Source: Xanthomonas bonasiae (GTDB lineage Bacteria; Pseudomonadota; Gammaproteobacteria; Xanthomonadales; Xanthomonadaceae). From it: a stretch of DNA of 64,000 nucleotides. Where the stretch lies: contig NZ_JAFIWB010000012.1 in the NCBI RefSeq assembly GCF_017163705.1, forward strand, positions 1-64,000, written 5' to 3'. Each line of letters starts with the position of its first letter. Position 1 is the stretch's first letter. Shown one piece after another: positions 16,969 to 53,222 of this stretch. The position numbers and the translations under genes are program-made. The notes below the pieces were generated by a model that saw only the letters and a program-made list of their open reading frames with translations, was not told where the DNA came from and ran no database searches.

Positions 16969-16981
16969 TTATGCGCGGCGC

Positions 16982-19635: not shown

Positions 19636-19664
19636 AGAATGGATTCCAGTGCCAACACGGGGAG

Positions 19665-19727: not shown

Positions 19728-19779
19728 GGCACGTTCTCCTTCGCGTCGGTTCGGTGAAGTGGAAAGCTGAAAAAAGGCA

Positions 19780-22755: not shown

Positions 22756-22776
22756 CGCGCCGCCTGTCGTGCCGGT

Positions 22777-23709: not shown

Positions 23710-23850
23710 TGACGACAGCTATACGCGATGCATTCGTAAGTTGCAGTTTACAAAGTCGCAAGCCGCCCTCGCCTACTGGCGCCACGGAGCGCTTGCTAAC
23801 GTGCCGCCTCCCGAGCTGCCAGGCTCGCAACGACCATCGAGGCATCGCCC

Positions 23851-24117: not shown

Positions 24118-24192
24118 GCGGTTTTCGCGTGCCGTCTCCGCAGCAAGCGTGTCATGCAGCGCAACGGTGGCGATCGGTCTTACGGTGACATC

Positions 24193-24219
24193 CTGTCGCG
24201 GCTGAAGCCGCTCCTACAG
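24193..24219. repeat. single REP element
   Basis: CTGTCGCGGCTGAAGCCGCT followed by CCTACAG, one unpaired copy of the REP family, just past the 3' end of the DUF4261 gene. Confidence 0.85.
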
Positions 24220-24255
24220 CGGCGTGGCGTGCACGGATGCAAGAAAAGCGCCGGC

Positions 24256-24975: not shown

Positions 24976-25072
24976 GATGGCGGCTCCTTGCCGTCAGGTG
25001 CCGGGCGCGCCCGACTGGAATGGCCGCCGCCGCAAAACCGGTGCGGCAGCGCTGGCAGGAGAAAAGCCGTGT

Positions 25073-25693: not shown

Positions 25694-25899
25694 GGCAGCG
25701 CTCCTGTTGCGAGTGCCAATTCTATGCTCACACGCGTAGCGCAGGCCGATGCATGCGCTTGCGCCCGCTGCGACGCCAGCGCAACGGTGCAGATCCGGCC
25801 GCACCGACCGGCGCGGCGCGCAACAGCAGCGCCGCTTGCCACCGGCATCCCCAGGCGCGACTGCGACCACGCCTGCCGCTGCGCACGCCGCAGGCGCGC

Positions 25900-27891
25900 T
25901 CAGTCAAACTGCAACACGAAGCCGCCGCGCGCCGGCAATGCCACCTCGAGGTTTTGCGTCGGCCCCACGTCGATGCGGCGGCTGGCCAACCCCAGCGGGC
26001 CGTCGCCATCGACGATCAGGCGTGCGCCGCGACCGGCCACACCCAGCTCCGACAAGTTCAGGCGCAACGTGCGCGGCTGCGCATCGGCATTGATGCCTGC
26101 CACGTACCAACGCGTGCCGCCGCGCCGCGCGAACACCGCGAAGCGCCCGGGATAGCCGTCCACATAGCGGCTGTCGTCCCACACCGAGGGCAGCTCGCGC
26201 AACAGCGCGCGCACCTCCGGCGCTGCCTTCTCAAGATTCTCGGGCGTCTCGGCGTAATGCTGGATGCCGGAGACGAACAGCACCGTCTCGGCCAGTTCGA
26301 AGCCCGGCGTGGTGCGGCGCTGCACCTTGTCGTTGAGCTTGACCAGGGCCAGCGGGGTGAAGTCCATCGGGTCGAACACGTTGCGCGCGAACGGCAGCAT
26401 CGCCGCATGCGCCGGCACCTGGTCGGCGTTGACCTGCTCGAAGGTGGCGAATTCCAGCCCGCGCACCGCCTCCATCGTCATCAGGTCCGGCCAGGTGCGC
26501 TGCCAGCCGCGCGGCAAGGTGGCGCCATGGAAGTTGAGCATCAGCCCGTACGGCGCGGCGTCCTGCATGATGTCCAGGTAGTAGCCGATCATCGACTGCC
26601 CGTCGCCGCCGAAGAAGTCGATCTTCACCCCGGCCACGCCCATCGTCTTGAGCCGTTCGAACTCGCGGATGCGGCTGGCGTGGGTCAGCATGCGGTCGCG
26701 CGGGGTCTGCGGCGCATCGTTCCAGCTGCCGGCCGAGTTGTACCAGAGCAGGATGGCCACGTGCTTGCCGCGGGCGTAGTCGATCAGCTCGCGCATCCTG
26801 TCTTCGCCGATCTGCGTGTCCCACAAGGCGTCGATCAGGGTGTAGCGCCAGCCCATGCGCGCGGCGAAATCGATGTAGCGCTTCTGCACCTCGAAAGTGG
26901 TGGCGCCGTCGCCGAGCAGCGGCCAGCTCCACGATGCCTTGCCCGGCTGCGGCGGCGCGACCGGCGCGACCGCGGGCGGGTCGGCCAGGTCGGTGCCGAG
27001 GGTGGACTCGGCGATGGTCTTCAGGCTGCCGATGGCGACGATGCGCCAGGGCGAGCGCCACGGCAGCGCGAAGCTCGGGTTGGCGGCGCCACCGGGGAGC
27101 ACTTCGCGCGGATCGGGCATGCCGATCGCATACTCGCCGGGCACGTCGGCGACATCGCGCAGGCGGCTGCCGGCATGGCCGCGACCGAGCGCGCCCTCGC
27201 TGAGCAAGACCCAGTCCGCGCCATGGCGGAACAGCGCCGGATACACCCAGCCGGCCGCGAGCGGCGACGGCGTGCCCACCGCGATGTCCTGCAGGTAGTA
27301 CTCCTCGTACGCGGGGTTGGTCCTGCCGAACCCGGTCTTGGCCGCCGACATCGGCTGCAGCCACGCACGGGTCTGGGCCGCGAAGCGGAACGTGCTGGCG
27401 TCCTCGCGCAGCTGGCGGATCGTCGCATCGCGCTGCGGGAAGTCGTAGCGGAACGCGACGCCGTCGTCGGACACCTGGAATTCGATCTGCAGGCGTTCGC
27501 CGTTGGCGCCGCGCCAGGAGAACACGCGCCGGTTGGCGCGGTAGTCGTTGATCCGTCGCTTGCCGGTGAGCAGTTCGTAGCGATCGCGCACGGCGGCGAC
27601 CGGCGACACCTCGATCAGCTGCAGGCCCTTGGAAAAATCGGCATCGTCGCGCACCAGACCGAGCCGCGAGGGCAGCAGCACCTCCCGTCCCTGGCGCAGC
27701 ACGCGGTAGTGTGCGGTGCCGGCCGAGTCCAGGGTCAGCTGCGCGCGCAGCGTGGCGTCCGGGCTGAGTACCTCGCCGACCATGCGCTCGGCGGCCAGCG
27801 CCGGCAGCGCGCACAACAGCAGCGCGCACGCTGCCGCGATCGTGGCCCAGCCCCTGCGCCAGCGGCTCAGAATTGCGGATTCTTTTCCCAT
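25900..27891 (-). CDS. secreted glycoside hydrolase family 97
   Basis: 663 aa with a signal peptide (core TIAAACALLLCALPALA). GH97 has an N-terminal super-sandwich domain, a TIM barrel and a C-terminal beta domain, all with space here. The barrel holds MGVAGVKIDFFGGDGQSMIGYY, LNFHGATLPRGW and MTMEAVRGLEF. The Asp in VKIDFF matches the nucleophile of retaining GH97 enzymes (alpha-galactosidase, and the bifunctional beta-L-arabinopyranosidase type), whereas SusB-like inverting alpha-glucosidases lack it. In an arabinose cluster a beta-L-arabinopyranosidase/alpha-galactosidase is therefore plausible (inference). Its ATG lies inside a remnant of a GH127 gene end, so the N-terminus may be a product of rearrangement. 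Confidence 0.88.
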   Translation of the reverse strand: MGKESAILSRWRRGWATIAAACALLLCALPALAAERMVGEVLSPDATLRAQLTLDSAGTAHYRVLRQGREVLLPSRLGLVRDDADFSKGLQLIEVSPVAAVRDRYELLTGKRRINDYRANRRVFSWRGANGERLQIEFQVSDDGVAFRYDFPQRDATIRQLREDASTFRFAAQTRAWLQPMSAAKTGFGRTNPAYEEYYLQDIAVGTPSPLAAGWVYPALFRHGADWVLLSEGALGRGHAGSRLRDVADVPGEYAIGMPDPREVLPGGAANPSFALPWRSPWRIVAIGSLKTIAESTLGTDLADPPAVAPVAPPQPGKASWSWPLLGDGATTFEVQKRYIDFAARMGWRYTLIDALWDTQIGEDRMRELIDYARGKHVAILLWYNSAGSWNDAPQTPRDRMLTHASRIREFERLKTMGVAGVKIDFFGGDGQSMIGYYLDIMQDAAPYGLMLNFHGATLPRGWQRTWPDLMTMEAVRGLEFATFEQVNADQVPAHAAMLPFARNVFDPMDFTPLALVKLNDKVQRRTTPGFELAETVLFVSGIQHYAETPENLEKAAPEVRALLRELPSVWDDSRYVDGYPGRFAVFARRGGTRWYVAGINADAQPRTLRLNLSELGVAGRGARLIVDGDGPLGLASRRIDVGPTQNLEVALPARGGFVLQFD

Positions 27892-27930
27892 ACAGCCCTC
27901 ACTCGGCAATAGACCGCATAACGCTGGTGG
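27867..27930 (-). pseudogene. remnant of a GH127 gene 3' end
   Basis: The minus strand reads HQRYAVYCRVRAVWEKNPQF then TGA, almost the same as the last residues of the intact GH127 protein (HERYAVYCRARPVWEKNPQF). About 56 of 64 bases agree with 31667-31730, and the similarity stops abruptly beyond 27930. The start codon of GH97 lies within it, in another frame. It is the scar of a deletion or of a gene duplication. Confidence 0.8.
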
Positions 27931-28050
27931 ACTCGGCGTTGCTCACCTTCCCCAACATGTCGCTAGCGCGTATCGACCGTGCGCTGCACCTGTCCAAGCA
28001 GCACGGACGCGACGCGATTACCGTGTTCAGCGGCGGGGCCGAACCCGCCG
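27931..28050 (+). pseudogene. possible fragment of a GGDEF (diguanylate cyclase) gene end
   Basis: One plus-strand frame reads SLARIDRALHLSKQHGRD, then AITVFSGG. This resembles the end of GGDEF domains (RADxALYxAKxxGRNR). No upstream domain is present, as the sequence joins the GH127 remnant. The assignment is by eye from about 25 residues and is weak. The rest of the 187-bp gap between GH97 and the GH43 gene holds nothing else. Confidence 0.3.
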
Positions 28051-28078
28051 GCGCCCGCGGGACGGCGCACGCGCCGGC

Positions 28079-29152
28079 TCACTTCTGCAACGCTGATGCA
28101 TCCACCTGCGGCCATTGCTGCGCGTCCCAGCGCAACGGCAGCACGTGCAGCTTGGGCCGGCCGTTGTCCTTGCTGTCGTAGGCATGGAACACCAGGTAGT
28201 CCTTGCCATCGAAGGTGTACGCGCTGTTATGGCCGGGACCGGCCCAGCGTGCGCTGCCTTGCAGCACCAGGCTGCCGCCGCCCTGATCCAGACGCTTGCC
28301 GTCCTTGTCCAGGTACGGGCCGGTCACCTCGCGGGCGCGGCCGACCATGATCTTGTAGTCGCTCTTGACGCCGCGGCAGCAGTGGTCCCAGGACAGGAAC
28401 AGGTAGTACCAGCCGTTCTTCTTGAACACGAACGGCGCCTCCAGTGCGGCCGGCTCCGGCTCGGCGTCGTCCACCAGCAGCGAGCGTTCGCGCTTGGCCA
28501 GGGTCTGCCATTGTTGCGGCTCGGCCAGATGCAGGCGGTCGGGCGCGAGCCGGACCAGCTTCAGTCCGCCCCAGAACGAGCCGAAGCTGAGCCAAGGCGT
28601 GCCCTGCGCGTCTTCGACCAGGTTCGGATCGATGGCGTTCCACAGGTCGCGCTGCGGCAGCGAACGGATCAGGATGCCGTGGTCCTTCCAGGCGAAGGCG
28701 GGATCCTTGGGATCGAGCGTGGTGTTGGTGGCCACGCCGATCGCCGAGGTGTTCTTGCCGCCGCTGGAAACGGAGTAATACAGCGTGTAGACGCCGTCGT
28801 GGAAGGAGATGTCCGGCGCCCAGATATGCCCGTTGAAGTCCTTGACCACGCTGGCGGTCCAGGCCGGACTGTGCGCGAACACCGGCGGCTCGGCCTTCCA
28901 GGTCTTCATGTTGCGCGAGCTGTAGACGCTGATGCCCGGGCCGGTAATGAACAGGTACCAGGTCTTGCCCTGGCGGATCATCACCGGATCGTGCGCGAGC
29001 ACATCGGCGTGGTAGCCCTTGCGCGGCGCGGCCACCGGCGGTTGGTCGAGCATCGAGGCACCGGCGGCCGACGGCGGCGTCTGCGCGGCCGCAGTGGCGC
29101 ACAACGCGACGCCCAGCAGCAGGCCGGCGAGCCGTGGCAGGCGCCGGCTCAT
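28079..29152 (-). CDS. secreted GH43 arabinan endo-1,5-alpha-L-arabinosidase
   Basis: 357 aa with a signal peptide (LAGLLLGVALCATAAAQ). The five-bladed propeller family GH43 acts by inversion. The three acidic residues are visible: base Asp in VLAHDPVMIRQG, pKa-modulating Asp in NAIDPNLVED, and acid Glu in ALEAPFVFKKNGWYYLF. Segments FGSFWGGLKL and SWDHCCRG are typical of endo-arabinanases, which cut the arabinan backbone. Its ATG overlaps the stop of the preceding GH43 gene (ATGA), so the two are translationally coupled. Confidence 0.93.
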   Translation of the reverse strand: MSRRLPRLAGLLLGVALCATAAAQTPPSAAGASMLDQPPVAAPRKGYHADVLAHDPVMIRQGKTWYLFITGPGISVYSSRNMKTWKAEPPVFAHSPAWTASVVKDFNGHIWAPDISFHDGVYTLYYSVSSGGKNTSAIGVATNTTLDPKDPAFAWKDHGILIRSLPQRDLWNAIDPNLVEDAQGTPWLSFGSFWGGLKLVRLAPDRLHLAEPQQWQTLAKRERSLLVDDAEPEPAALEAPFVFKKNGWYYLFLSWDHCCRGVKSDYKIMVGRAREVTGPYLDKDGKRLDQGGGSLVLQGSARWAGPGHNSAYTFDGKDYLVFHAYDSKDNGRPKLHVLPLRWDAQQWPQVDASALQK

Positions 29153-30117
29153 GCGCCATCCTCGCCGACGATCGCCTCGCGTTGCGGGCGGCCGAACACC
29201 GGCATGCCATCCGCGTCCCACTGCAACGGCTGCACGCAGGCGTGGCGGTCGGGATTCCATAGCGGGTCGCCTTCGATGTCGCGGTAGTTGCGCGCGTGGT
29301 AGACCAGCAGGTCCTGGCGGCCGTCTGCGGAGACGGTGAAGCTGTTGTGGCCGGGGCCATACACCTGTCGCTCCACATCGGTCGCGAACACCGGCTGCGG
29401 CGACTTGTGCCAGGACGCCGGGTCGAGCAGGTCGTCGTTCTCGTCGGCCCACAGCAGGCCCATGCAGTAGCGCGCGTCGGTGGCGCTGGCCGAGTAGCTG
29501 ACGAACACCTTGCCATGCCGCAGCAGCACCGCCGGGCCTTCGTTGACCAGGAAGCCCTGCACTTCCCATTCCAGTTCCGGCCGGCTCAGCAGCACCGGCA
29601 CGCCGGCCAGTTGCGTGGGCGTGGCCATCGGCGCGATGTACAGGTTGGAGTTGCCGGCGATCTGCGGCGCCTTCTGCGCCCACACGTAGTAGCGCTGGCC
29701 GCGGTGGGCGAAGGTGGTGGCGTCCAGGCAGAACGCATCGATGCCGCTGTGCACCTGGCCGAGGAATTCCCAGTCGCCGCCGAGCGGATCGTCGGCGCCG
29801 CAGCGCAGCGCGTACATGCGGTGCTGGAACAGGCCGTCGCGGATCTCGCGCGACGGCGCCGCGGCGAAGTACACGTACCAGACGCCGTCGATATGGTGCA
29901 ACTCCGGCGCCCAGATCAGCGCGCTGGCCGGGCCGCTCGGCGGCGCGTGCCACACCGCGACCGGCGCGGCGTCGGCCAGGCCGTCCAACGTGCGCGCGCG
30001 GCGCAGTTCGATGCGGTCGTATTCGGGCACCGAGGCAGTGAAGTAGTAGTGGCCGTCGTGGTGGCGCAGCACGAACGGATCGGCGCGTTGCGGTACCAGG
30101 GGGTTGCTGATGTGCAT
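29149..30117 (-). CDS. GH43 arabinanase/arabinofuranosidase (subfamily 26-like), no signal peptide
   Basis: 322 aa. Starts MHISNPLVPQRADPFVLRHH, with base Asp in RADP; SGIDAFCLDATTF supplies the modulating Asp, and FLVNEGPAVLLRHGKVF the acid Glu. This layout fits GH43_26-like exo-alpha-1,5-L-arabinofuranosidases. No export signal is visible, so it would finish imported arabino-oligosaccharides in the cytoplasm, complementing the secreted endo-enzyme. It lies 19 bp after the GPH transporter gene and overlaps the next GH43 gene by ATGA. Confidence 0.9.
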   Translation of the reverse strand: MHISNPLVPQRADPFVLRHHDGHYYFTASVPEYDRIELRRARTLDGLADAAPVAVWHAPPSGPASALIWAPELHHIDGVWYVYFAAAPSREIRDGLFQHRMYALRCGADDPLGGDWEFLGQVHSGIDAFCLDATTFAHRGQRYYVWAQKAPQIAGNSNLYIAPMATPTQLAGVPVLLSRPELEWEVQGFLVNEGPAVLLRHGKVFVSYSASATDARYCMGLLWADENDDLLDPASWHKSPQPVFATDVERQVYGPGHNSFTVSADGRQDLLVYHARNYRDIEGDPLWNPDRHACVQPLQWDADGMPVFGRPQREAIVGEDGA

Positions 30118-30136
30118 GGTGTGCGTCCGTGGGTCG

Positions 30137-31513
30137 TCAGGTAGGCGTGGCCGGCGGGGCGGCCGCCACGCCTTGCAGCGACAGCGGCAACGTGCCCTGG
30201 GTGAGCCGGCGGTAGTAGTCGTCGGTGATGCGGTAGCCGAACATCAGCGCCCCCATCAGCGCATGGAACAGGCCCGGAATCACCGACAGCATCAGCGCGA
30301 TGCCGGTCAGGGTGAAGGTGCTCTGCGGGCGGTCGGGCACATACTGGTAGTAGGTCAGCAGCCAGCCGACCAGCGCGCCGGCCACGCCCATGCCGGCCTT
30401 CTGGCAAAACGAGATGCCGCCGAACGCCAACCCGGCCACGCGCTTTCCGGTCTTGGCCTCGCCGTAGTCCACCGCTTCGGCGATGGCCGACCAGAACACC
30501 GGCGCGTGCAGGTCCACCACGAACGAGATCAGGAAATACAGCACGAACGCGAGCAGCGTATCGCCGGGCTTGACCAGCACGAACATCAGCACGCTCAGCA
30601 GCGCCACCAGCAGCTGGCTGTAGCGGAACAGCTTGATCTTGCAGAACGCCTTGGTGATCCAGGTGGAGGCGACCATCGCCAGGATCGCGGCCGCCACGCC
30701 GGTGGACAGGAACGCCGACAGCAACCGCGCGTCGCCGCCCAGGTAGTACTTGGCGTAGTAGGCGGCGACCGAGCCGCGCACCACGTAGCCGACGGTGCCG
30801 GTCACGCACACCGCGCACAGGATCAGCCATTGGTCGTTGCGCAGCAGCAGGCGCAGTTGCTCCAGGAACGGCTTGCGCTCCACTTCGTGCTGCACGCGTT
30901 CGGTGGTGGTGAAGAAGCAGAACAGGAACAGCAGCGTGGCCATCGCCCCCATCAGTCCCATCGCCCATTGGTAGCCGCGCGCCAGGTTGCCGTCGCCCCA
31001 GGCCACCGCCAACTGCGGCACCACGATGGTGACCAGGAACGCGGCGACCTTGGCGAAGAACAGCCGGTAGCCATTGGCCGACAGGCGCTCCTTGGGATCG
31101 GCGGTGAGCACGCCGATGATGGAGATGTAGGGAATGGTGACGCCGGTGAAGATCAGCATCACCAGCAGATAGGTGGCGTAGGCGTAGGCCAGCTTCAGGT
31201 TGTAGGCCAGGTCCGGGGTGCTGAAGGTCAGGAACACCGCCAGCCCGAACGGCACCGACAGGAACAGGAAGTACGGCCGGTAGCGGCCCCAGCGCGTATT
31301 GATGCGGTCGGTGACGATGCCCATCAGCGGGTCGGTGACCGCATCGACCATGCGCACGGCGATGAACAACAGCGCCAGGTCCTGCGGTTTGAGGCCGTAG
31401 ATATCGGTATAGAAGAAGGTGATGATCAGCATCATCGACGACATCACCACGTTCACGGCCATGTCGCCGGCGCCGAAGCCGACCTTCTCGATCACGCTCA
31501 ATTTGTGTTGCAT
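30137..31513 (-). CDS. GPH-family sugar:cation symporter (MFS superfamily)
   Basis: 458 aa, about 12 helices. ATG at 31513 follows AGGAGGGG. Family signatures: KVGFGAGDMAVNVVMSSMM, the MVDAVTDPLMGIVTDRINTRWGRYRPYFL loop (one region near residues 50-80, with the D-P-x-x-G-x-x-x-D-R motif) and FWSAIAEAVDYGEAKTGKRVAG in the second half. GPH members (MelB, XynP, XylP, AraP-type) move glycosides with Na+ or H+. Placed just before a cytoplasmic GH43 gene, it most likely imports arabino-oligosaccharides across the inner membrane (inference). Confidence 0.92.
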   Translation of the reverse strand: MQHKLSVIEKVGFGAGDMAVNVVMSSMMLIITFFYTDIYGLKPQDLALLFIAVRMVDAVTDPLMGIVTDRINTRWGRYRPYFLFLSVPFGLAVFLTFSTPDLAYNLKLAYAYATYLLVMLIFTGVTIPYISIIGVLTADPKERLSANGYRLFFAKVAAFLVTIVVPQLAVAWGDGNLARGYQWAMGLMGAMATLLFLFCFFTTTERVQHEVERKPFLEQLRLLLRNDQWLILCAVCVTGTVGYVVRGSVAAYYAKYYLGGDARLLSAFLSTGVAAAILAMVASTWITKAFCKIKLFRYSQLLVALLSVLMFVLVKPGDTLLAFVLYFLISFVVDLHAPVFWSAIAEAVDYGEAKTGKRVAGLAFGGISFCQKAGMGVAGALVGWLLTYYQYVPDRPQSTFTLTGIALMLSVIPGLFHALMGALMFGYRITDDYYRRLTQGTLPLSLQGVAAAPPATPT

Positions 31514-31666
31514 GCGCCCCTCCTGCGAAGCTCGCGCGATGATTCGTAGAGCCCGGCCGTGCCCTCCACGCGCCGGGATGCAAGCACGCTCAGCCGGACT
31601 GCGCCACGTCGCCTCCCGGTGGCGGGGACGCGCCGCAGCAGGACACGCCACGCGCGCGTGGCGGGG

Positions 31667-40928: not shown

Positions 40929-41924
40929 ATGCCTGCCGCCACGCCCTGGTTCGTCCGCGCCCGCCTGAAGACCCGGCAATTGATGCTGCTGCTGGCGATC
41001 GAGGAGGAAGGCAACATCCATCGCGCCGCCGAGACCTTGAACATGTCGCAGCCGGCCGCGTCCAAGCTGCTCAAGGACCTGGAGGACATGATGGAGGTGC
41101 CGCTGTTCGAGCGGCTGCCGCGCGGCATGCGCCCGACCTGGTACGGCGAGGCGATGATCCGCCACGCGCGCATCGCCCTGTCCAGCCTGGGCGAGGCCGG
41201 CGCCGAGATCGAGGCGTTGAAGGCCGGCTATTTCGGCAGCGTCAGCGTCGGCGCCATCGCCGGGCCGGCGATGACCCTGCTGCCGGCCGCGCTGGCCCAG
41301 GTCACCGAACAGCATCCGCTGCTGCGCGTGGCGCTGCGCGTGGACGGCAGCGACGTGCTGCTGGAGCAACTGGCGCAGAACAAGCTCGACATCGTGGTGG
41401 CGCGGCTGTTCGCGCGCCACGACAAGCGCAACCTGCACTACCAGGCGCTGGCCGAGGAAGAGGTGTGCGCGATCGCCCGCCCCGGCCACCCGATCCTGGC
41501 GATGCCGCAGCCGGCGCTGCGCGAACTGGCCGACGCCGGCTGGATCGTGCCGCCGGACGGCAGCGTGCTGCGCCACCGCTTCGAGCTGATGTTCCAGAAC
41601 GCCGGGCTGGAGCCGCCGAAACGGGTGGTGGAGACCTCGGCGCTGGTGGTGCTGCCGCAGCTGCTGCGCCTGGGCGACTATCTGGCGGTGGTGCCGGTGG
41701 ACGTGGCCCGGCATTTCGCCGACCACGGCAGCGTGGCGATCGTGCCGGTGGAACTGTCGTGCCGGATGGACGCGTTCGGCATCATCACCCGCACCGACTG
41801 GCTGCTGTCGCCGGGCGCGCGGATCATGCTGCAGGCGCTGCAGGCCGCGGCCGGGCCGGTGTACGGCTATGTCGCGCCGGCCGAGGATGCGGTGGCGCCG
41901 GCGGATGCGCGAACCGAAGGATGA
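40929..41924 (+). CDS. GbpR-like LysR-family regulator of sugar utilisation
   Basis: 331 aa from ATG 40929; ATGs at 40914 and 40896 are possible alternatives. N-terminal HTH: TRQLMLLLAIEEEGNIHRAAETLNMSQPAASKLLKDLE. The effector domain includes GSVSVGAIAGPAMTLLPAALAQV. The PAASKLLKDLE and ERLPRGMRPTWYGE segments match the GbpR (galactose-binding protein regulator) group, which in Agrobacterium and Azospirillum responds to galactose, arabinose and fucose and controls a sugar-binding protein. It is therefore the likely regulator of this cluster. The REP array begins two bases after its stop. Confidence 0.9.
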   Translation: MPAATPWFVRARLKTRQLMLLLAIEEEGNIHRAAETLNMSQPAASKLLKDLEDMMEVPLFERLPRGMRPTWYGEAMIRHARIALSSLGEAGAEIEALKAGYFGSVSVGAIAGPAMTLLPAALAQVTEQHPLLRVALRVDGSDVLLEQLAQNKLDIVVARLFARHDKRNLHYQALAEEEVCAIARPGHPILAMPQPALRELADAGWIVPPDGSVLRHRFELMFQNAGLEPPKRVVETSALVVLPQLLRLGDYLAVVPVDVARHFADHGSVAIVPVELSCRMDAFGIITRTDWLLSPGARIMLQALQAAAGPVYGYVAPAEDAVAPADARTEG

Positions 41925-41925
41925 G

Positions 41926-42462
41926 GTCGGGGCTGAAGCCCCTCCTACAGTGCACCCAGCCGGTCAACCGCAAACCCCTGTAGGAGCGGCTTCAGCCGCG
42001 ACCGAACGCAGCGGTAGACATTCCGTCCGTCTGCGCACACCGTCGGGGCTGAAGCCCCTCCCACAGTGCACCCAGCCGACCAACCGCAAGCCCCTGTGGG
42101 AGCGGCTTCAGCCGCGACCGAACGCAGCGGTAAACATTCCGTCTGCAGACACCGTCGGGGCTGAAGCCCCTCCCACAGTGCACCCAGCCAACCAACCGCA
42201 AGCCCCTGTAGGAGCGGCTTCAGCCGCGACCGAACGTAGCGGTAGACATTCCGTCTGCGCACACCGTCGGGGCTGAAGCCCCTCCCACAGTGCACGCAGC
42301 CGACCAACCGCAACCCCCTGTAGGAGCGGCTTCAGCCGCGACCGAACGCAGCGGCAGCCCAGGCGTGCCGCCAAACCATCTGAGCCGAAGCCCTCCCACC
42401 CTGCAACCCGCCAGGCAATCGCGACCATCTTGTGGGAGCGACTTCAGTCGCGACGAGCGGAG
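41926..42462. repeat. five-unit tandem array of a composite REP element
   Basis: Units begin near 41926, 42042, 42154, 42266 and 42378, a period of 112-116 bp. Each holds GGGGCTGAAGCCCC with CTCC(T/C)ACAG, a spacer GTGCACCCAGCC...CAACCGCAA, then TGTAGGAGCGGCTTCAGCCG and a further CCGAACG(C/T)AGCGG link. The first four are nearly identical; the fifth is diverged. The array fills the 612-bp gap between the regulator and the SDR gene, with no gene in it. Confidence 0.92.
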
Positions 42463-45242: not shown

Positions 45243-45312
45243 TTGTAGGAGCGGCTTCAGCCGCGACAGGCCTTACCGACAGCGCCTGTCGCGGCTGAAG
45301 CCGCTCCTACAA
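45243..45312. repeat. perfect 29-bp inverted REP pair
   Basis: The left arm starts TTGTAGGAGCGGCTTCAGCC at 45243 and its exact complement ends CTCCTACAA at 45312, with a 12-bp centre. As RNA it would form a very stable stem just past the dehydratase stop. It is not followed by a T-tract on the plus strand, so it is more likely an mRNA 3' stabiliser or transcription barrier than a classic terminator. Confidence 0.92.
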
Positions 45313-45394
45313 AAATCGATATCCGGCGCAGCCCTGGCCGCATGCCATCAGGCTTCTCCGCGAAAGCCCTGTCCAAGCATCGGACACGCAGCCC

Positions 45395-45411
45395 GTCACC
45401 GAAACGTCATC
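45395..45411 (+). promoter_or_regulatory. candidate ECF promoter element upstream of the sigma gene
   Basis: GTCACCGAAACGTCATC lies 45 bp before the proposed sigma start. It matches 14 of 17 bases of GTCACAGAAAATTCATC upstream of the TonB receptor gene (47259). Autoregulation by the ECF sigma factor would explain the shared motif (inference). Confidence 0.5.
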
Positions 45412-45455
45412 CGCAGCCTCTAGCCTGCGCCGCATCCAAGGGGCAAGGCAGGTCG

Positions 45456-45980
45456 GTGGCGGCACATCCCAAGCGCGCGTGGGCGCGCATGTTCGCGGAA
45501 CATGGTCCGGTGCTGCGCGGCTTCTTCGTGCGCCGCGGCGCCAACGAGGATGCCGAGGACATGGTGCAGGAAACCTATCTGCGCCTGCTGCGCGCGCACC
45601 AGCACCAGGGCGAGGCGATCGCCAATCCCGAGGCCTACCTGTACACGGTGGCGCTGAACCTGGCGCGCGAACAGGCCGCGCGGCGCAAGCAGGCGCCGCT
45701 GCGCATCGACGAGATGGAGCAGTTTTCGCAATTGCTGGCCGCAGGGGACGACGTGGAAGACACGGCACAGCGACAGCAGCGGCAACAGCGCCTGCAGGCC
45801 CTGCTGGCCGGCTTGCCCGAACGCACCCGCGCGGTGCTGGTGATGCAGTACCGCGACGGCCTCAGCTACAAGCAGATCGCCGAACGCATGGGCGTGTCCG
45901 CGCACATGGTCAAGAAGCACGTGGTGCGCGGGCTGTCGGCGTGCCGGCGGGCGCTGGCCGAGAGCGGAGAAAGCTGGTGA
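45456..45980 (+). CDS. ECF sigma-70 factor, FecI-like
   Basis: 174 aa from GTG at 45456, which follows AAGGCAGG. Region 2: LRGFFVRRGANEDAEDMVQETYLRLL (the D-A-E-D-M-V-Q-E-T-Y core). Region 4: LAGLPERTRAVLVMQYRDGLSYKQIAERMGVSAHMVKKHVVRGLSACR. This is the FecI class, held by a FecR-type inner-membrane anti-sigma factor and released by a signal from an outer-membrane receptor. The FecR gene overlaps by GTGA, and an STN-domain TonB receptor follows, giving the full set. Confidence 0.93.
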   Translation: MAAHPKRAWARMFAEHGPVLRGFFVRRGANEDAEDMVQETYLRLLRAHQHQGEAIANPEAYLYTVALNLAREQAARRKQAPLRIDEMEQFSQLLAAGDDVEDTAQRQQRQQRLQALLAGLPERTRAVLVMQYRDGLSYKQIAERMGVSAHMVKKHVVRGLSACRRALAESGESW

Positions 45981-47056
45981 ACGAGGCCGCCTTCCCGCCG
46001 CGCAGCGCCACTGCCGAGGCCGCGCACTGGCATGCCCTGCAACGCATGCAGGCGCTGGACGCGAGCCAGCAGGCGCAGCTCATGGACTGGCTGACCGCAT
46101 CGCCGCTGCACCTGCGCGAATACATGGCGGTGCTGCGCGTGGCCGGCGAACTGGGCGAGGCCATGCGCGGCATGGACCTGGACGTGGACGCGCTGCTCGA
46201 CGCCGACCGTCGCGCCGACACCGACGCGGCGCCGCGCAACGTGATCGCGCTGCCGCTGCCGCAACGGCCACCGCGCCCCGCCGCGCAGATGCCCCGCGCC
46301 GCAGGCCGGCACGCGCGCCTGCGCGGCTGGGGCATGGGCCTGGCCGCGGCGCTGTGCGGCGTAGCGGTGCTGGCCGCCTGGGCCTGGCCGCGCACCACGA
46401 CCTACAGCACCGCGCACGGCGAACAGCGCAGCGTGCAGCTGGCCGATCGCAGCACCGTGCACCTCAACGCGCAAAGCGCGCTGCGCGCGACGATGACCCC
46501 GTGGAGCCGGCGCCTGCAGTTGCTGCATGGCCAGGCCAGCTTCGTGGTCGCGCCGGATCGGCGCCCGCTGCAGGTGCTGGCCGGCACGCTGCGGGTCGAG
46601 GACATCGGCACCACCTTCGATATCGCCCTGTACCGGCAACAGGCACGCATCGACGTGGCCGAGGGCCGCGTGCACGTATGGCGCGCCGATCGCCCGCGGC
46701 AGCCGATGCTGGCCGATCTCGGCGCCGGGCAGAGCGCGCGCATCGACGCCGCCAGCGGCCGGGTCGAACTGGCCAGCGAGGACGTCGCCGCGATGCATGC
46801 CTGGTGGCAGCGCCGCATCGTGTTCCGCAACGAACCGCTGGCCAACGTCGCCGAGGATTTCAACCGGCTCAACCGCACCCGCCTGCTGATCGACGACACC
46901 GCCGCCGGTGCGATGCGCCTGACCGGCAACCTGCGCGGCGACGACATCGCCTCGCTGCGCGCGTTCCTCGCCGACCAACCGACGTTGCGCGTCACCGCCA
47001 GCGCCGACGCGATCCGCGTCGGCAGCCGCGCCGCGCCGCGGCCGGTCGCACGCTGA
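45977..47056 (+). CDS. FecR-family anti-sigma/signal transducer
   Basis: 359 aa from GTG 45977, overlapping the sigma stop. Cytoplasmic N-terminal part (about 1-115) with a DUF4880-like helical region (HWHALQRMQALDASQQAQLMDWL), a membrane helix near 119-137 (WGMGLAAALCGVAVLAAWAW), then the periplasmic FecR domain (STAHGEQRSVQLADRSTVHLNAQSALR; VEDIGTTFDIALYRQQARIDVAEGRVHVW) and a C-terminal STN-like segment (FNRLNRTRLLIDD) that contacts the receptor. It transmits the receptor signal to the sigma factor. Confidence 0.92.
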   Translation: MNEAAFPPRSATAEAAHWHALQRMQALDASQQAQLMDWLTASPLHLREYMAVLRVAGELGEAMRGMDLDVDALLDADRRADTDAAPRNVIALPLPQRPPRPAAQMPRAAGRHARLRGWGMGLAAALCGVAVLAAWAWPRTTTYSTAHGEQRSVQLADRSTVHLNAQSALRATMTPWSRRLQLLHGQASFVVAPDRRPLQVLAGTLRVEDIGTTFDIALYRQQARIDVAEGRVHVWRADRPRQPMLADLGAGQSARIDAASGRVELASEDVAAMHAWWQRRIVFRNEPLANVAEDFNRLNRTRLLIDDTAAGAMRLTGNLRGDDIASLRAFLADQPTLRVTASADAIRVGSRAAPRPVAR

Positions 47057-47386
47057 CCGCGGCGTCGGTCGCCGAACGCGGCGACCTCCGTCTGCGCGCC
47101 TGGCCAGATCGCTGCGCAACCGCGAGCGCCGTGGCACTACGCGCGCAGACGCGCCACCCACCACCGTCCAGCGCGCACCCGGTCATGGTGCAAGCGTTCG
47201 TTCGCACGCGCACGCGACCAGCGGAGAAAACGACCGATCGCCCTCGCCCCACGCACGTGTCACAGAAAATTCATCGAAAAGCGGTGCCCGATCGTCGCTG
47301 TCGATCCTCGTAGTCCAGGCACAACGCAGCATTCCGCCCTTGCGGCAGCGCTGCGCCCCACCTTCCGCTCCCACTGGACAACGACG
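47057..47386 (+). promoter_or_regulatory. 330-bp gap upstream of the STN receptor
   Basis: No gene is seen. It holds GTCACAGAAAATTCATC at 47259-47275, within an AT-richer patch (47256-47282) that stands out from its GC-rich flanks. The motif lies 111 bp before the receptor ATG, leaving a leader of roughly 80 nt. It is the candidate promoter driven by the adjacent ECF sigma factor. Confidence 0.5.
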
Positions 47387-50281
47387 ATGCGCCGCACCCT
47401 GTTCCTTTCCATCGCCCTCGCCCTGCATGCCGGTACCGCCGGCGCCCAGACCACGTCCGTCGCGGTCGATGCGATTCCCGCACAGCCGTTGGCGCGCGCG
47501 CTCAACACCCTGTCGCGGCAGAGCGGACTGCAGTTCGTCTATGCCGCGGGCGTGGCCGGCAATCCGCAGACCCGCGGCACCAGCGCCGGCGCCACGCCGG
47601 AACAGGCCCTGCGGCAATTGCTCGACGGCACCGGCCTGCGCTACCGCTATCTCAACCCGACCACGGTAACGATCGAAGCCGCAGGCGCAGAGGCCGACGC
47701 GGCGCAGGCGGCACCGCCAGCGGCATCCGCCGCAATGCCGGCCGCCGCGCCCACGGCGGACGCGCCGGTGAAGGAACTGGACCGCATCCAGGTGCTGGGC
47801 AGCTACGCCGGCAGCCTCAGCGCCGCGCTGCGCGAGAAGCGCTACGCCGACAGCGTGGTCGACGTGATCGCCGCCGAGGACATCGGCAAGCTGCCGGCGC
47901 AGAACGTGGCCGAAGCGCTGCAGCGCGTGCCCGGCGTGTCGATCGTGCGCGACCGCGGCGAAGGCGTGTACGTGCGCGTGCGCGGCCTGGGCCCGAACTT
48001 CCAGGTCACCACGCTCAACGGCCAGACCATGGCGGTCAACGAGAACGTGCGCACCTCCGGCCAGACCGGCCGCCAGTTCCGCTACGACACGCTGCCGGCC
48101 GAACTGGTGTCCGGCCTGGAGGTGATCAAGAGCCCCACCGCCGACCTGGACGAAGGTGCGATCGGCGGCATCGTCAACGTGCGCACGTTCCGTCCGCTGG
48201 AACTGGGCAAGACCCTGACCAACCTGTCGCTGGAATCGAGCCAGGCGCAGCGCACCCACGCCAACGATCCGCGCGTGTCCGGCCTGTTCAACTGGGTCAA
48301 CGCCGACGGCAGCTTCGGCATGCTGATCTCCGGCGCCTACGCGCAGCGCAGCCTGCGCCAGGACCGGGTCAACGAAGTGAGCTGGGACTACTACCCCAAC
48401 GGCGTGCCGGGCGCGCCCGGCGCCTATTACGCGCCGACCGGCCTGCGTCCGACGCTGGAACTGGAGCAGCGCGAGCGCACCGGCGTAGCCGCCTCGCTGC
48501 AATGGAAGCCGAGCGCGGCGTGGGAGACCAACCTGGACCTGCTCTACGCCAAGCAGACCGTGCACTACGACGAGTACAGCATGGGCGTGGGCTTCGACAG
48601 CCTGGCGAAGATGAGCAACATTCGCGTCGAGCACGGCGGCATCACCGGTTTCGACTACCGCAACGGCCAGGTGCAGATCTCGCGCGAGACCTCCGGCATC
48701 ACCGACGACAACCGCAGCGCGCGCCTGTCCAGCGCCTGGAGCGGCGATCGCTGGACGCTGGGCGCGGTGGCGTTCCACTCGCAGGCGCACAGCTACGATT
48801 CGGACCCGATCCGGCGCACCCGCCTGCGCAGCGGCACCAATCTGTCGATGCGCGTGGAGATGCCGCAGGCCGACGGCGACAACGTGCCCGACTGGAGCTT
48901 CACCAACGGCTTCGATCCGAACAACCCGTCCACCGTGGCCGGACGGCGCCTGGAATGGCGCGAGATCGACGCGCGCGACAAGGAGGACGCGCTGCAGTTC
49001 GACGCCAAGCGCGCGCTCGACGGCGACTTCTTCCGCGACCTCAAGGTCGGCGCAAAATACCGCCAGCGCTCGCGCAGCTACGACCGCGCCGATCTGCTGC
49101 TCAACAGCATCGCCGGCGTGCGTTTCCCGGCCGGCAACTTCACCGCGCTGCCGGTGGACGACATGCTCGCCGACGCCAACGGCACCCTGCCGCGACAATG
49201 GCTGGCGCCGATCGAATCCACCTTCTGGGGCAACTGGCCGACCGCCGCGGACCTGGCCAACACGCCCAACAGCGCCGACCTGCAGAACTCCTACGAGGTG
49301 AAGGAAAAGATCGGCTCGGCCTACGCCATGGCCGATTTCGGCAGCGAACTGGCCGGCCGCGCCCTGCGCGGCAATCTCGGCGTGCGCCTGGTGCGCACCG
49401 AACAGACCACCGATGGCCACGCAGACGTCAACGGCACCGCGCAGCCGGTGCATTTCGAGCGCAGCTACAACAACGTGCTGCCCTCGTTCAACGCCGCCTG
49501 GGACGTGCGCGAGGACATGGTGCTGCGCGGCTCTGCGGCCAAGGTCATCACCCGCCCCGACCTCACCGACCTGTCGTCCAAGCTCACCTTCAACTCCAGC
49601 GGCGAGATCCTCACCGCCAGCGGCGGCAATCCCGGGCTCAAGCCGTTCGAGGCGTGGCAGTACGACCTGACCTTCGAGTGGTACATCGACGGCACCTCGG
49701 CGCTGACCGGCGGCGTGTTCTACAAGGACATCTCCAGCTTCATCCAGACCCAGATGTCGAACCTGGTCTACCAGGGCCAGACCTATCTGCTGTCGTCCAA
49801 GACCAACGGCAGCGAGGCCAAGGTCAAGGGCGCCGAAGTGGCCTACCAGCAGGTGTTCGCCGGCCTGCCGGCGCCGCTGGACGGACTGGGCATGCAGCTC
49901 AACTACACCTGGACCGACAGCGAGGCCAGCTACCGCGACGGCACCCGCACCTTCACCGACAGCCTGGAAGGCGTGGCCAGGAACACCTACAACGCGGTGC
50001 TGTTCTACGAGAAGGGACCGCTGATGGCGCGGGTCAGCTACGGCTGGAGCGACGACATCCTCAACGCGGTCGGCACCGCCAACGTCGCCACGCTCAACAG
50101 CGACAAGTTCGGCAGCCTGGACGCGAACGTGGCCTACAAGGTCAACGACAGCCTGTCGGTGTTCGTCAACGCGATCAACCTCACCGGCGAAGTGCAGCGC
50201 CAGTACGTCGGCGACCACCTGTTCGGCGGCTACACCGACTACGGCCGCACCTGGTCGGTCGGCCTGCGCGCACGATTCTGA
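47387..50281 (+). CDS. TonB-dependent transducer with N-terminal STN domain
   Basis: 964 aa. Signal peptide MRRTLFLSIALALHAGTAGA, then an STN domain (about 22-95: VDAIPAQPLARALNTLSRQSGLQFVY, GTSAGATPEQALRQLLDGTGLRY), an Ala/Pro linker, a TonB box (LDRIQVLG, near 127), the plug (VVDVIAAEDIGKLPAQNVAEALQRVPGVSIV) and the barrel ending WSVGLRARF. STN receptors signal ligand binding to FecR. The genes downstream are secreted phosphoester hydrolases, so the ligand is more likely a phosphorylated or inositol-type compound, or iron bound by one, than a sugar (inference). Confidence 0.93.
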   Translation: MRRTLFLSIALALHAGTAGAQTTSVAVDAIPAQPLARALNTLSRQSGLQFVYAAGVAGNPQTRGTSAGATPEQALRQLLDGTGLRYRYLNPTTVTIEAAGAEADAAQAAPPAASAAMPAAAPTADAPVKELDRIQVLGSYAGSLSAALREKRYADSVVDVIAAEDIGKLPAQNVAEALQRVPGVSIVRDRGEGVYVRVRGLGPNFQVTTLNGQTMAVNENVRTSGQTGRQFRYDTLPAELVSGLEVIKSPTADLDEGAIGGIVNVRTFRPLELGKTLTNLSLESSQAQRTHANDPRVSGLFNWVNADGSFGMLISGAYAQRSLRQDRVNEVSWDYYPNGVPGAPGAYYAPTGLRPTLELEQRERTGVAASLQWKPSAAWETNLDLLYAKQTVHYDEYSMGVGFDSLAKMSNIRVEHGGITGFDYRNGQVQISRETSGITDDNRSARLSSAWSGDRWTLGAVAFHSQAHSYDSDPIRRTRLRSGTNLSMRVEMPQADGDNVPDWSFTNGFDPNNPSTVAGRRLEWREIDARDKEDALQFDAKRALDGDFFRDLKVGAKYRQRSRSYDRADLLLNSIAGVRFPAGNFTALPVDDMLADANGTLPRQWLAPIESTFWGNWPTAADLANTPNSADLQNSYEVKEKIGSAYAMADFGSELAGRALRGNLGVRLVRTEQTTDGHADVNGTAQPVHFERSYNNVLPSFNAAWDVREDMVLRGSAAKVITRPDLTDLSSKLTFNSSGEILTASGGNPGLKPFEAWQYDLTFEWYIDGTSALTGGVFYKDISSFIQTQMSNLVYQGQTYLLSSKTNGSEAKVKGAEVAYQQVFAGLPAPLDGLGMQLNYTWTDSEASYRDGTRTFTDSLEGVARNTYNAVLFYEKGPLMARVSYGWSDDILNAVGTANVATLNSDKFGSLDANVAYKVNDSLSVFVNAINLTGEVQRQYVGDHLFGGYTDYGRTWSVGLRARF

Positions 50282-50432
50282 GCCGAGCCCGCGCGGTCGC
50301 CGCCGTCGTGCGGCGCCGCGCGCGAGGGCGGCCGCGCCCGCTGCGGCGCTGTCCGCCGACCCGTCTTCCCGGCCGGTGCCTCGGCCAGCGGCATGGCGCG
50401 CCTTGCCGTCCCGCCTCTTCCGGAAACATGCG

Positions 50433-51737
50433 ATGCCATCGATCCCTCGCCTAGCCGTCGCCGCGCTGCTCGCGCTCGCCCTGCTGCCGTTCGCCGCCGC
50501 GCACGCCGCCGTCGCGGCACCGCAGGACACCCTGGAAAAAGTCCTGATCCTCAAGCGCCACGGCGTGCGTTCGGCGATGTCCAGTCCGGAGCAGCTGGGC
50601 CGCTACTCGGCGCGCCCATGGCCGCACTTCGGCGTCCCCGCCGGGCACCTGACCGAGAACGGCGCGCGCCTGGAAGCGCTGTTCGGCGCCTACTACCGCG
50701 CGCGCTATGCGCCGCAGGGCCTGTTCGCCGGCGACGCCTGCGCCAGCGCCTACTACTGGGCCAATCGCACCCAGCGCACCATCGCCTCGGCGCAGGCGTT
50801 GGCGAGCACGCTGACGCCGGGTTGCGCGAACGAGGTGCACGGCGTCGCCGACGGCGCGTCCGATCCGCTGTTCGACGGCGCGCCGGCCCTGCGCACGCCC
50901 GCCGCCGCCGCGCTGATGCGCGCGGCCATCGCCGGCCGCATCGGCGGCGACGCCGCCGCCTGGAACGCGGCGCAGCGCGATGCGATCGACACGCTGCAGC
51001 AGCTGCTGTTGCAGTGCGCGCAGCGGCCGTGCCCGGCCGACGCGGACGCCGGCAAGCAGCGCCTGGACGCGGTGGCGGCGCGGATGGGCGACAGCGAAGA
51101 CGGCATTCCCGGCGTCGAAGGCCCGGCGGCGGCGGCCTCCGGCATCAGCGAAAGCCTGCTGATGGGCTGGGCAGACGGCCAGGACTTCGCCGCGCTGGGC
51201 TGGCAAGGCCTGGACGAGGCCAGCCTGCTGCGCGCGTTCGCCCCGCACCAGGCCGAGTTCGCGCTGCGCCTGCGCGCGCCCACGGTGGCGCGCATGGCCA
51301 GTTCGCCGTTGGCCGCGCGCGTGCTGGCCACGCTGCAGCAAGGCAGCGACAGCCCCGCGCATGCCGCGCCGATCGGCGGCGCTGCGCGGCTGGTAGTCGT
51401 CTCCGGACACGACGGCACGCTGACCCTGCTGGCCGGCATGCTCGATCTGCACTGGCAGTTGCCCGGCTACCAGCCGGACCAGACCGTGCCCGGCGGCGCG
51501 CTGGTGTTCGAGCGCTGGCGCCGCGCCGATGGGCAACGCGTGATCCGCCTGCGCTACACCGCGCAGAGCCTGGCCCAGCTGCGCGAACAGCGCGCGCTGA
51601 CGCTGCAGGCGCCGCCGCCATCCGCGCCGGTGTTCATTCCCGGCTGCAGCAGCGCCACCCCGGACTACGACTGTGCGCTGCCGACGCTGGCGGCGCTGAT
51701 CGGCACCGCGATCGACCCGCACTTCATGAGCGAATGA
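50433..51737 (+). CDS. secreted histidine acid phosphatase, phytase/AppA-like
   Basis: 434 aa with a signal peptide (LAVAALLALALLPFAAAHAA). Histidine phosphatase clade 2: the nucleophile motif RHGVRSA near residue 40 (canonical R-H-G-x-R-x-P, with Ala in place of Pro), and the proton-donor motif VSGHDGTLTLLAG near 330 with the HD pair. LTENGARLEALFGAYYR and YYWANRTQRTIASAQA (second Arg) also fit. The family releases phosphate from phytate or glucose-1-phosphate in the periplasm. It lies 151 bp after the receptor gene on the same strand. Phytate as substrate is an inference from family and context. Confidence 0.88.
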   Translation: MPSIPRLAVAALLALALLPFAAAHAAVAAPQDTLEKVLILKRHGVRSAMSSPEQLGRYSARPWPHFGVPAGHLTENGARLEALFGAYYRARYAPQGLFAGDACASAYYWANRTQRTIASAQALASTLTPGCANEVHGVADGASDPLFDGAPALRTPAAAALMRAAIAGRIGGDAAAWNAAQRDAIDTLQQLLLQCAQRPCPADADAGKQRLDAVAARMGDSEDGIPGVEGPAAAASGISESLLMGWADGQDFAALGWQGLDEASLLRAFAPHQAEFALRLRAPTVARMASSPLAARVLATLQQGSDSPAHAAPIGGAARLVVVSGHDGTLTLLAGMLDLHWQLPGYQPDQTVPGGALVFERWRRADGQRVIRLRYTAQSLAQLREQRALTLQAPPPSAPVFIPGCSSATPDYDCALPTLAALIGTAIDPHFMSE

Positions 51738-51849
51738 CGCCATGCCTCCGGCCGTCGGCCGGCGCCATGGCTGCCGCATCGGCGCATCCCGCGCCGCTTC
51801 CCTGGCCATCGTGCCAGCCGCTGTTCCCCACCACCGCAAGAGGCGATTC

Positions 51850-53154
51850 ATGATCCAGCATCTACGCACCCTCGTGAGCTTCGGCATCGGAGTGAGTCTG
51901 GCCTGTGCCGGCGCGGCGCACGCGCAATCGGACACCGGCGTGCTCGACGTCCTCAGCTACAACGTGGCCGGTCTGCCCGAAGGCATTTCCAGCAGCAACC
52001 CTTCCGCCAATACCGCGCAGCTGGCACCGAAACTGGCGCCGTACGGCCTGGTCCACGTGCAGGAGGACTTCAACTACCACGCCACCCTGTATGCCGGCGA
52101 CGCGCATCCCTACCGCACCGCCACCAGCGGCGGCGCCGCCATCGGCGACGGCCTCAACACGCTGAGCAACTATCCCTTCAGCGACTTCACCCGGGTCAAG
52201 TGGAACCAGTGCAACGGCACCGACTGCCTGACCCCGAAGGGCTTCAGCTACATGCGCGTGCGCCTGGCCGACGGCGTGCTGCTGGACGTGTACAACGCCC
52301 ACCCCAACGCCGGCACCGAAGCCGGCGACCTGTCCGCGCGCCGCGCCAACATCGGCCAGCTCTCGCAGTTCATCCAGACCTGGTCGGCCGGCAACGCAGT
52401 GCTGGTGATGATGGATTCCAATACCCGCTATACCCGCGCCGACGACAACATCCGCACGCTGATCGCGGCCAACGGGCTGACCGATCCGTGGGTGGAACTG
52501 GTCAAGGGCAGCGCGCCGGCCGCCGGCGCCGAGCCGCTGCTGTGCGGCACGCCGCCGACCAATGCCTGCGAAGTGGTCGACAAGATCCTGTACCGCGATG
52601 CGCCGCAGCTGACCCTGGTCGCCAACCGCTACCAGCTCGACCCCGGCACGTTCTACGACAGCGCCGGCAAGCCGCTGTCCGACCACTACCCGCTGTACGC
52701 GCAGTTCGGCTGGGCGGTGGGCACCGACGTGCGCACCAGCGACCAGGTCGGCGGCCCGCACGGCATCCCGTTCAACGATCTGGCCGACAGCGCCAGCGGG
52801 CGTCCGCTCAGCGGGGTCACCCTGCGTGGCGGCGAGCGCCTGGACAACGTCGGCGCGATCCTGGACACCGGCAAGCTGCTCGCGCACGGCGGCACCGGCG
52901 GACAGGCGACCACCCTGTCGCTGGGCGCCAACGAGACGCTGACCTCGGCCACCGTCAGCGTCGGCAAGTACAACGACACGACCCGCGTGTTCTCGCTGAG
53001 CCTGCGCACCAGCACCGGCCGCAGCGTGCAGGCGGGCAAGCCGACCAGCGAGACCTATACGCTGACCGCGCCCAGCGGCTGGCACATCGCCGGCTTCACC
53101 GGCCGCGCCGGCGACGCGATCGACAAGCTCGGCGTGGTGTACCGGAAGAACTGA
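51850..53154 (+). CDS. secreted EEP-fold phosphoesterase fused to a jacalin-like lectin domain
   Basis: 434 aa with a signal peptide (LVSFGIGVSLACAGAAHAQ). Residues about 30-290 form an endonuclease/exonuclease/phosphatase (sphingomyelinase/DNase I-like) domain: VLDVLSYNVAGLPEG, metal Glu in LVHVQEDFNYH, VYNAHPNAG, VLVMMDSNTRY, and the catalytic His in LSDHYPLYAQF. Residues about 300-434 resemble a jacalin-type lectin: VGGPHGIPFNDL, then LLAHGGTGGQATTLSLGANETL and IAGFTGRAGDAIDKLGVVY. The lectin could hold the enzyme on plant glycans or glycolipids. Last gene of the receptor operon, 112 bp after the phosphatase. Confidence 0.85.
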   Translation: MIQHLRTLVSFGIGVSLACAGAAHAQSDTGVLDVLSYNVAGLPEGISSSNPSANTAQLAPKLAPYGLVHVQEDFNYHATLYAGDAHPYRTATSGGAAIGDGLNTLSNYPFSDFTRVKWNQCNGTDCLTPKGFSYMRVRLADGVLLDVYNAHPNAGTEAGDLSARRANIGQLSQFIQTWSAGNAVLVMMDSNTRYTRADDNIRTLIAANGLTDPWVELVKGSAPAAGAEPLLCGTPPTNACEVVDKILYRDAPQLTLVANRYQLDPGTFYDSAGKPLSDHYPLYAQFGWAVGTDVRTSDQVGGPHGIPFNDLADSASGRPLSGVTLRGGERLDNVGAILDTGKLLAHGGTGGQATTLSLGANETLTSATVSVGKYNDTTRVFSLSLRTSTGRSVQAGKPTSETYTLTAPSGWHIAGFTGRAGDAIDKLGVVYRKN

Positions 53155-53193
53155 CGCGTCGCGGCGGGTCGCTCGCGTTCGCGCACCAACGAG

Positions 53194-53222
53194 AACGGCG
53201 CTCGCAACAGCGAGCGCCGTTT
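53194..53222 (+). terminator. hairpin terminator after the phosphoesterase
   Basis: Perfect 12-bp stem (AACGGCGCTCGC / GCGAGCGCCGTT, loop AACA) 40 bp after the stop, followed by only TCGGTT. It closes the sigma-receptor-phosphatase block. The next 210 bp to the convergent DUF805 gene hold nothing clear. Confidence 0.7.

Follow-up and report, generated by a model that had tools for sequence, protein, structure and literature searches.

A putatively phosphate-gated cell-surface signalling locus of Xanthomonas bonasiae coupled to a histidine phosphatase with altered active-site motifs

We have analysed a 64,000-nucleotide stretch of Xanthomonas bonasiae DNA (contig NZ_JAFIWB010000012.1, positions 1 to 64,000; hereafter the window), in which five consecutive genes encode an extracytoplasmic function (ECF) sigma factor, a FecR-type regulator, a TonB-dependent receptor with an STN domain, a histidine phosphatase and an endonuclease/exonuclease/phosphatase (EEP) domain joined to a jacalin-like lectin. 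The reading we favour, at about even chances and from comparison of sequences, is that these genes form one phosphate-starvation-gated operon for cell-surface signalling and uptake, whose likeliest substrates would be plant inositol-phosphate compounds, the head groups of glycosyl inositol phosphorylceramide (GIPC) sphingolipids first among them. Whereas cell-surface signalling mostly concerns iron, in these plant-associated bacteria it is apparently linked to phosphate hunger and to one specific source of organic phosphate.

A genetic unit with an optional last gene

An earlier note on this DNA had described an ECF sigma/FecR/STN-receptor set followed by two hydrolase genes. Re-reading and Pfam searches bear this out: all five genes are intact and lie on the same strand.

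45456..45980, + strand: ECF (FecI-like) sigma factor; Pfam Sigma70_r2 and r4_2, TIGR02937
45977..47056, + strand: FecR-type sigma regulator; Pfam FecR (1.8e-17) and DUF4880; GTGA overlap with the sigma stop
47387..50281, + strand: TonB-dependent receptor/transducer; STN at 47528-47680, plug and barrel; TIGR01782 family
50433..51737, + strand: histidine phosphatase, predicted exported, AppA-like; Pfam His_Phos_2 (E 2.7e-21); signal peptide read by eye
51850..53154, + strand: EEP phosphodiesterase domain with C-terminal jacalin-like lectin (52741-53136), predicted exported; Exo_endo_phos2 (1.5e-14), Jacalin (3.2e-18)

The starts of the phosphatase (ATG 50433) and of the EEP-jacalin protein (ATG 51850) are the most likely ones, chosen by us, and the signal peptides claimed for both hydrolases were recognised by eye. 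The receptor scores 771.7 bits against TIGR01782 (cut-off 310) and falls far under the cut-offs of siderophore and FecA models. The genome has five STN matches, four of them over the Pfam cut-off.

A scan with the phosphatase as query returned 30 loci, of which the nearest ones with a name belong to Xanthomonas. Because the order sigma, FecR, receptor, phosphatase is kept in 22 of them (L006-L027), this order goes beyond chance. The EEP gene comes next after the phosphatase in 18 of the 22; the contig of L021 is too short to cover this place. A search of 149 genomes of the family, the own genome included, found the receptor (E up to 1e-180) in at least 10. A phosphatase of at least 67% identity adjoins the receptor in 10 of the 10, and the EEP gene adjoins the phosphatase in at least 7. 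One of the three receptor-bearing genomes without the EEP gene (G030) has a contig end at this place and no EEP match elsewhere, while G004 has an EEP match at 40% and neither a receptor nor a phosphatase match. Since the 22-locus and 10-genome sets overlap (at least L007, L019, L021, L022 and L023 are in both), the two counts are not independent. By an automatic rule, a receptor lies less than 1500 nt upstream on the same strand as the phosphatase in 31 of 41 loci; the rule missed L120 and L035, where over-long open frames masked the order, and passed L118 and L119 with overlapping over-long frames. No receptor was found less than 1500 nt upstream of the phosphatase in L129, L133, L134, L136, L175, L176, L178 and L180.

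These observations show that receptor and phosphatase are the core of the unit and the EEP gene an optional add-on; the locus is a real genetic unit with an optional last gene. The tie between the FecIR/STN-receptor set and the phosphatase, which the note had proposed, is true wherever the receptor was found (10 of 10 genomes; 22 loci). Hydrolase genes lying elsewhere in relatives had been named as what would speak against it: the phosphatase lies beside the receptor wherever the latter was found, whereas the EEP gene does so in part (7 of 10 genomes; 18 of 22 loci). Its absence from beside the phosphatase in L022, L023 and L027 weighs against a fixed five-gene set and makes this gene accessory. 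The broader claim that the locus serves a phosphoester has fared well, in that the system looks made for one.

In L024 (Xanthomonas phaseoli pv. phaseoli ATCC 49119), the sigma gene appears as two tblastn pieces at about 4993-5515 and may be broken.

A distinct phosphatase clade with altered active-site motifs

Histidine acid phytases carry the signature RHGxRxP together with HD. In the window enzyme the HD is kept and the proline is replaced (RHGVRSA), and its motifs read RHGVRSAMSS and GHDGT as against RHGVRAPTK and HD[TA]N of the phytase type. Against the AppA equivalog NF007552 it reaches 238.3 bits, short of the cut-off of 585. In a maximum-likelihood tree of 73 selected phosphatases (a 74th was dropped for a bad frame) it falls, with support 100/99, in a clade of 33 that also holds enzymes from other Xanthomonadaceae, from Sphingobium (L027) and from another genus of the same phylum (g223). 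The motif pair RHGVR[SA]AMS[ST] and GHDGT is present in 33 of 33 sampled clade members and in 0 of 41 phosphatases outside, so that the clade is a distinct one with altered active-site motifs.

The contexts in g223 suggest what such phosphatases might act upon. Among 299 genomes of that genus's family the clade was found in 26, all of them g223. The gene stands in an NAGLU(GH89)-HGSNAT-phosphatase arrangement in 12 of the 26 loci (receptor upstream in 11, GH115 in 9, a PTS gene in 9). Four loci have the order receptor, GH92, phosphatase, GH115, with a second gene of GH92, an alpha-mannosidase family, on the opposite strand. Of the remaining 10, nine show sigma, FecR, receptor and phosphatase as in the window, and the tenth, on a short contig, shows receptor and phosphatase. 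Pfam was run on L175, L209 and L220, and phmmer and tblastn carried the assignments over to the others. According to a passage in PMC8099651, GIPC head groups are GlcNAc(a1-4)GlcA(a1-2)Ins-P-Cer, or GlcN in place of GlcNAc, in rice and tobacco and Man-GlcA-Ins-P-Cer in Arabidopsis leaves. The combination of HGSNAT, GH89 and GH115 fits GlcN(Ac)(a1-4)GlcA(a1-2)inositol-phosphate, and that of GH92 and GH115 would fit Man-GlcA-inositol-phosphate. GH115 acts on the GlcA of xylan (a passage in PMC4528235), and we infer that it could act on GIPC as well.

L175 and L209-L223, all in g223, look like dedicated GIPC head-group degradation loci, with a receptor, GH89 and HGSNAT or GH92, the phosphatase and mostly GH115.

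The best surviving alternative is that the locus scavenges phytate or inositol polyphosphates in general under phosphate control, the phosphatase being a phytase, the receptor importing partly hydrolysed inositol phosphates and the EEP protein acting as a side enzyme. The phosphatase is indeed AppA-like by family, and phytases head its matches in the PDB. Moreover, in passages of the literature the adjacency of a TonB receptor gene and a phytase gene is read as phytate uptake (PMC3400609), the PhoB-controlled genes of Caulobacter include TonB receptors and a phytase (PMC11208175), and Xanthomonas PhyA is said to use phytate (PMC9403785). We nevertheless consider this alternative rather unlikely, as RHGVR[SA]AMS and GHDGT replace the phytase-type motifs in all 33 sampled clade members and 16 of the 26 g223 clade loci are glycan loci. 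The motif census lowers the plain phytase reading in particular. The earlier note had offered phytate among the plant phosphoesters that the system might sense; phytate is weakened as the substrate by the motifs and by the GIPC-type glycan loci of g223, and GIPC or other inositol-phosphate compounds appear likelier.

One result weighs against extending the GIPC link to the window: no relative of GH89, GH92, GH115 or HGSNAT was found in L006-L027 (up to about 21 kb each). The link for the window therefore rests on the phosphatase clade and the EEP protein.

The EEP-jacalin protein

When a profile of the EEP catalytic domain (12 rows, 75-90% identical to the window domain) was compared with solved structures, ten matches were obtained at E up to 10, of which the best eight are all sphingomyelinases (7cne, 7.1e-4; 2uyr, 0.0011; 2ddr, 0.0012; human SMPD2, 0.003; the others 0.013 to 0.22) and the last two are chance. 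The lectin matches of the full protein are led by a mannose/glucose-specific lectin. These profile matches weakly favour a sphingolipid phosphodiesterase.

Several results count against this assignment. Pfam places the domain under Exo_endo_phos2. The structural models are poor, with a predicted local distance difference test score (pLDDT) of 42 at full length, and for the catalytic domain a pLDDT of 47 and a predicted template modelling score (pTM) of 0.55. A fold search with the poor catalytic-domain model returned several kinds of EEP enzyme, TDP2 first, and so supports the EEP superfamily and nothing narrower. We take the name Exo_endo_phos2 to mean inositol 5-phosphatase-like; such an activity was considered and lowered, since the profile gave just sphingomyelinases, the two chance matches aside. 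In a survey of the phylum, relatives of the EEP protein were found in 2 of 398 genomes, the own genome included, and the other genome matches the lectin part alone.

Promoters of the sigma and receptor genes

The sigma regulon was examined through promoter sequences, in which four elements are of interest.

45394..45410, + strand: Pho-box-like 11-bp direct repeat CGTCACCGAAACGTCAT upstream of the sigma gene (GTCAY-N6-GTCAY)
45421..45426, + strand: -10-like hexamer TAGCCT, 10 bp past the second half-site; partly conserved, read from sequence
47258..47274, + strand: TGTCA-N6-ATTCAT, degenerate Pho-box-like block preceding the receptor promoter; kept in 21 of 23 loci
47282..47313, + strand: proposed receptor ECF promoter, CGGTGCC, 19 bp, TCGTAG; conserved footprint

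Pho boxes consist of two 7-bp direct repeats with 4-bp spacers, as described in a passage of PMC4971064. The repeat upstream of sigma has this period and the matching spacing to a candidate -10, which argues for putative PhoB control, as in the PUMA3 system of Pseudomonas aeruginosa, and not for iron control. GTCAY-N6-GTCAY stands in 21 of 23 loci, whereas none of 2675 background windows (160 nt, one strand) contains it, and over 21 aligned rows the letters CGTCA and GTCA of the repeat are at least 90% conserved while the surrounding DNA has diverged. The window itself has one match where 0.07 are expected, and 7 of 100 shuffles also contained one. Genome-wide, CGTCAYNNNNNYGTCAY matches at six sites and the reversed control at one. 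The six are at the window locus, at a second such locus on contig C36 (locus 2, where the box is conserved in 5 of 5 copies), at pstS, at a gene judged by eye to be alpha/beta-hydrolase-like, and at two more places. The genome also has a PhoB gene that exceeds the curated cut-off, and across 20 genomes of the genus the strict box lies upstream of the first-copy pstS in nine, the own genome included; upstream of second copies of pstS it was found in 0 of 10. A sigma-70 consensus scan found nothing at the sigma promoter.

Two of the genomic sites can be described further. The repeat at C20:17688 (L141) has TAGAGC 10 bp downstream and stands ahead of the alpha/beta-hydrolase-like gene. The site at C74:40792 (L145) is near a match to an OmpR-type regulator and near a repeat protein that by eye is YadA-like.

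Ahead of the receptor, the window footprint reads in full TGTCA-N6-ATTCAT-N7-CGGTGCC-N19-TCGTAG. With slight variation in spacing and sequence, the full element recurs in 21 of 23 loci and also ahead of the locus-2 receptor in 5 of 5 copies. Its first three blocks occur in 0 of 1601 background windows, and its core pattern has exactly two sites in the 5.38 Mb genome, at the receptors of the two loci (reversed control, 0). We read this element as a putative ECF promoter preceded by a Pho-box-like block, an arrangement shown for the VreI promoters (PMC4971064).

A second alternative holds that the repeats are promoter parts or sites of another regulator, and that this is a carbohydrate-type receptor locus induced by its ligand only. 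The points that weigh against PhoB control are these. Ahead of the receptor -35, the block matches a Pho box poorly and may instead be an UP element. The strict box upstream of sigma is missing in L020 (Pseudoxanthomonas) and L027 (Sphingobium), whose sigma and FecR proteins are just about 30% alike, although L027 carries TTGTCATTAAACTGACC; the full receptor element is missing in the same two. Furthermore, the strict box is absent at 11 of 20 first-copy pstS loci, and nine alignable sigma promoters of g223 conserve just a half-site, CTGTCA[CT]. We regard this alternative as quite improbable, given the period of the sigma repeat, its distance to the -10, its recurrence at pstS and its restriction to six genomic sites.

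That the locus is a plain FecIRA-type iron system, with hydrolases that release iron from phytate or other phosphoesters, is highly improbable: the protein set is that of FecI/FecR/FecA, and such sets mostly serve iron according to a passage in PMC1790865, but the receptor is of the TIGR01782 type and no Fur-like site rises above background at the 23 sigma promoters. With the Xanthomonas Fur motif given in a passage of that paper, the 250 nt preceding sigma score at best 7-12 of 19 across the 23 loci (9-10 at the five locus-2 copies), against 8-13 in 250-nt bins of the window. Of two control STN loci in the same genome, the one on C66 scores 15 of 19 upstream of its sigma gene, and the one on C55 scores 9 of 19 and has no Pho box. 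The iron role raised in the earlier note is thus not borne out, and the promoters have a Pho-box-like repeat instead. PhoB control is preferred because the repeat is present in 21 of 23 loci and also at pstS and locus 2, and because no Fur-like site was found; it suggests that phosphate hunger rather than iron hunger may switch the locus on.

Proposed mechanism and relation to known systems

In a phosphate-gated operon of the kind we favour, low phosphate would cause PhoB to turn on sigma and FecR, as the conserved Pho-like box suggests. Ligand arriving at the STN receptor would then free sigma through FecR, to judge from the domains. Sigma, probably with PhoB, might next transcribe receptor, phosphatase and EEP genes, as the promoter element common to both receptors suggests. 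At the plant surface the exported sphingomyelinase-type EEP-jacalin enzyme could cut phosphodiester head groups, whereupon the receptor would import the phosphorylated head group and the exported phosphatase would free the phosphate.

A narrower proposal can be put forward tentatively, as possible but somewhat doubtful: plant-associated bacteria may mine the phosphate of GIPC, with a lectin-guided sphingomyelinase-type enzyme releasing glycosyl-inositol-phosphate, a signalling TonB receptor detecting and importing it, and the new phosphatase clade dephosphorylating it. Genus g223 has candidate glycosidases for both common head groups. If the GIPC link is true, it points to candidate genes with which bacteria use a major lipid of the plant plasma membrane, and it accounts for a phosphatase clade that annotation would label as phytase.

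PhoB-gated cell-surface signalling is already known from PUMA3 (VreA-VreI-VreR; PMC4971064), as is a TonB receptor beside a phytase gene (PMC3400609), both as described in passages of those papers. PUMA3 resembles the window locus in its PhoB-gated sigma/anti-sigma pair, which is here predicted, and its targets have a pho box upstream of the ECF -35. It differs in that VreA is a smaller, apparently signalling-only receptor-like protein and vreAIR one operon (the same passage), whereas the window has a full-size receptor with an apparent promoter of its own, and two hydrolases. With FecI-FecR-FecA signalling the window shares the customary succession of sigma, FecR and STN receptor; it departs from it in the Pho-like rather than Fur-like site and in its phosphoester hydrolase neighbours. 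The Xanthomonas TonB carbohydrate utilisation loci reportedly described by Blanvillain in 2007 likewise couple a TonB receptor to exported degradative enzymes, but in the window these are a phosphatase and a phosphodiesterase. Neither "phytase" nor "phosphatase" is used in the main text of that paper (PMC1790865).

At the level of single proteins, the phosphatase shares family and the catalytic RH and HD with AppA/Agp histidine acid phosphatases and differs in its clade motifs. The nearest solved relatives of the EEP domain by profile are neutral sphingomyelinases C (a weak likeness, best E 7.1e-4); the window protein differs in having a jacalin lectin, and the fold search does not single sphingomyelinase out. 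Full-text literature searches, with subscription journals mostly outside their scope, returned no paper describing such a system by title or abstract opening.

Further phosphatase copies and neighbouring features

Two further phosphatases are encoded in the genome, each directly behind a TonB receptor. Locus 2 on contig C36 again has sigma, FecR, STN receptor and phosphatase, with identities to the window proteins of 43.5%, 34.7%, 31.2% and 33.7%, respectively. For the third, on contig C15, no sigma or FecR gene was found within the 16 kb examined. This phosphatase (L085, C15:30000-46000, at 4340-8866) has SDTH instead of HDTN, and its gene lies behind its receptor near a metK-like gene named by eye.

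Downstream of the EEP-jacalin gene there is one further feature.

53197..53218, + strand: hairpin, possible transcript end; read from sequence, not called by the terminator scan

An interspersed repeat of the type gtaggagcggcttcagccgcgac, noticed by eye, adjoins the locus at 45244-45316 and at 41900-42400 of the window. Further away, at 12360-31650, the window encodes another TonB receptor (940 aa), followed by arabinofuranosidase-like and more apparent glycosidase genes, all named by eye.

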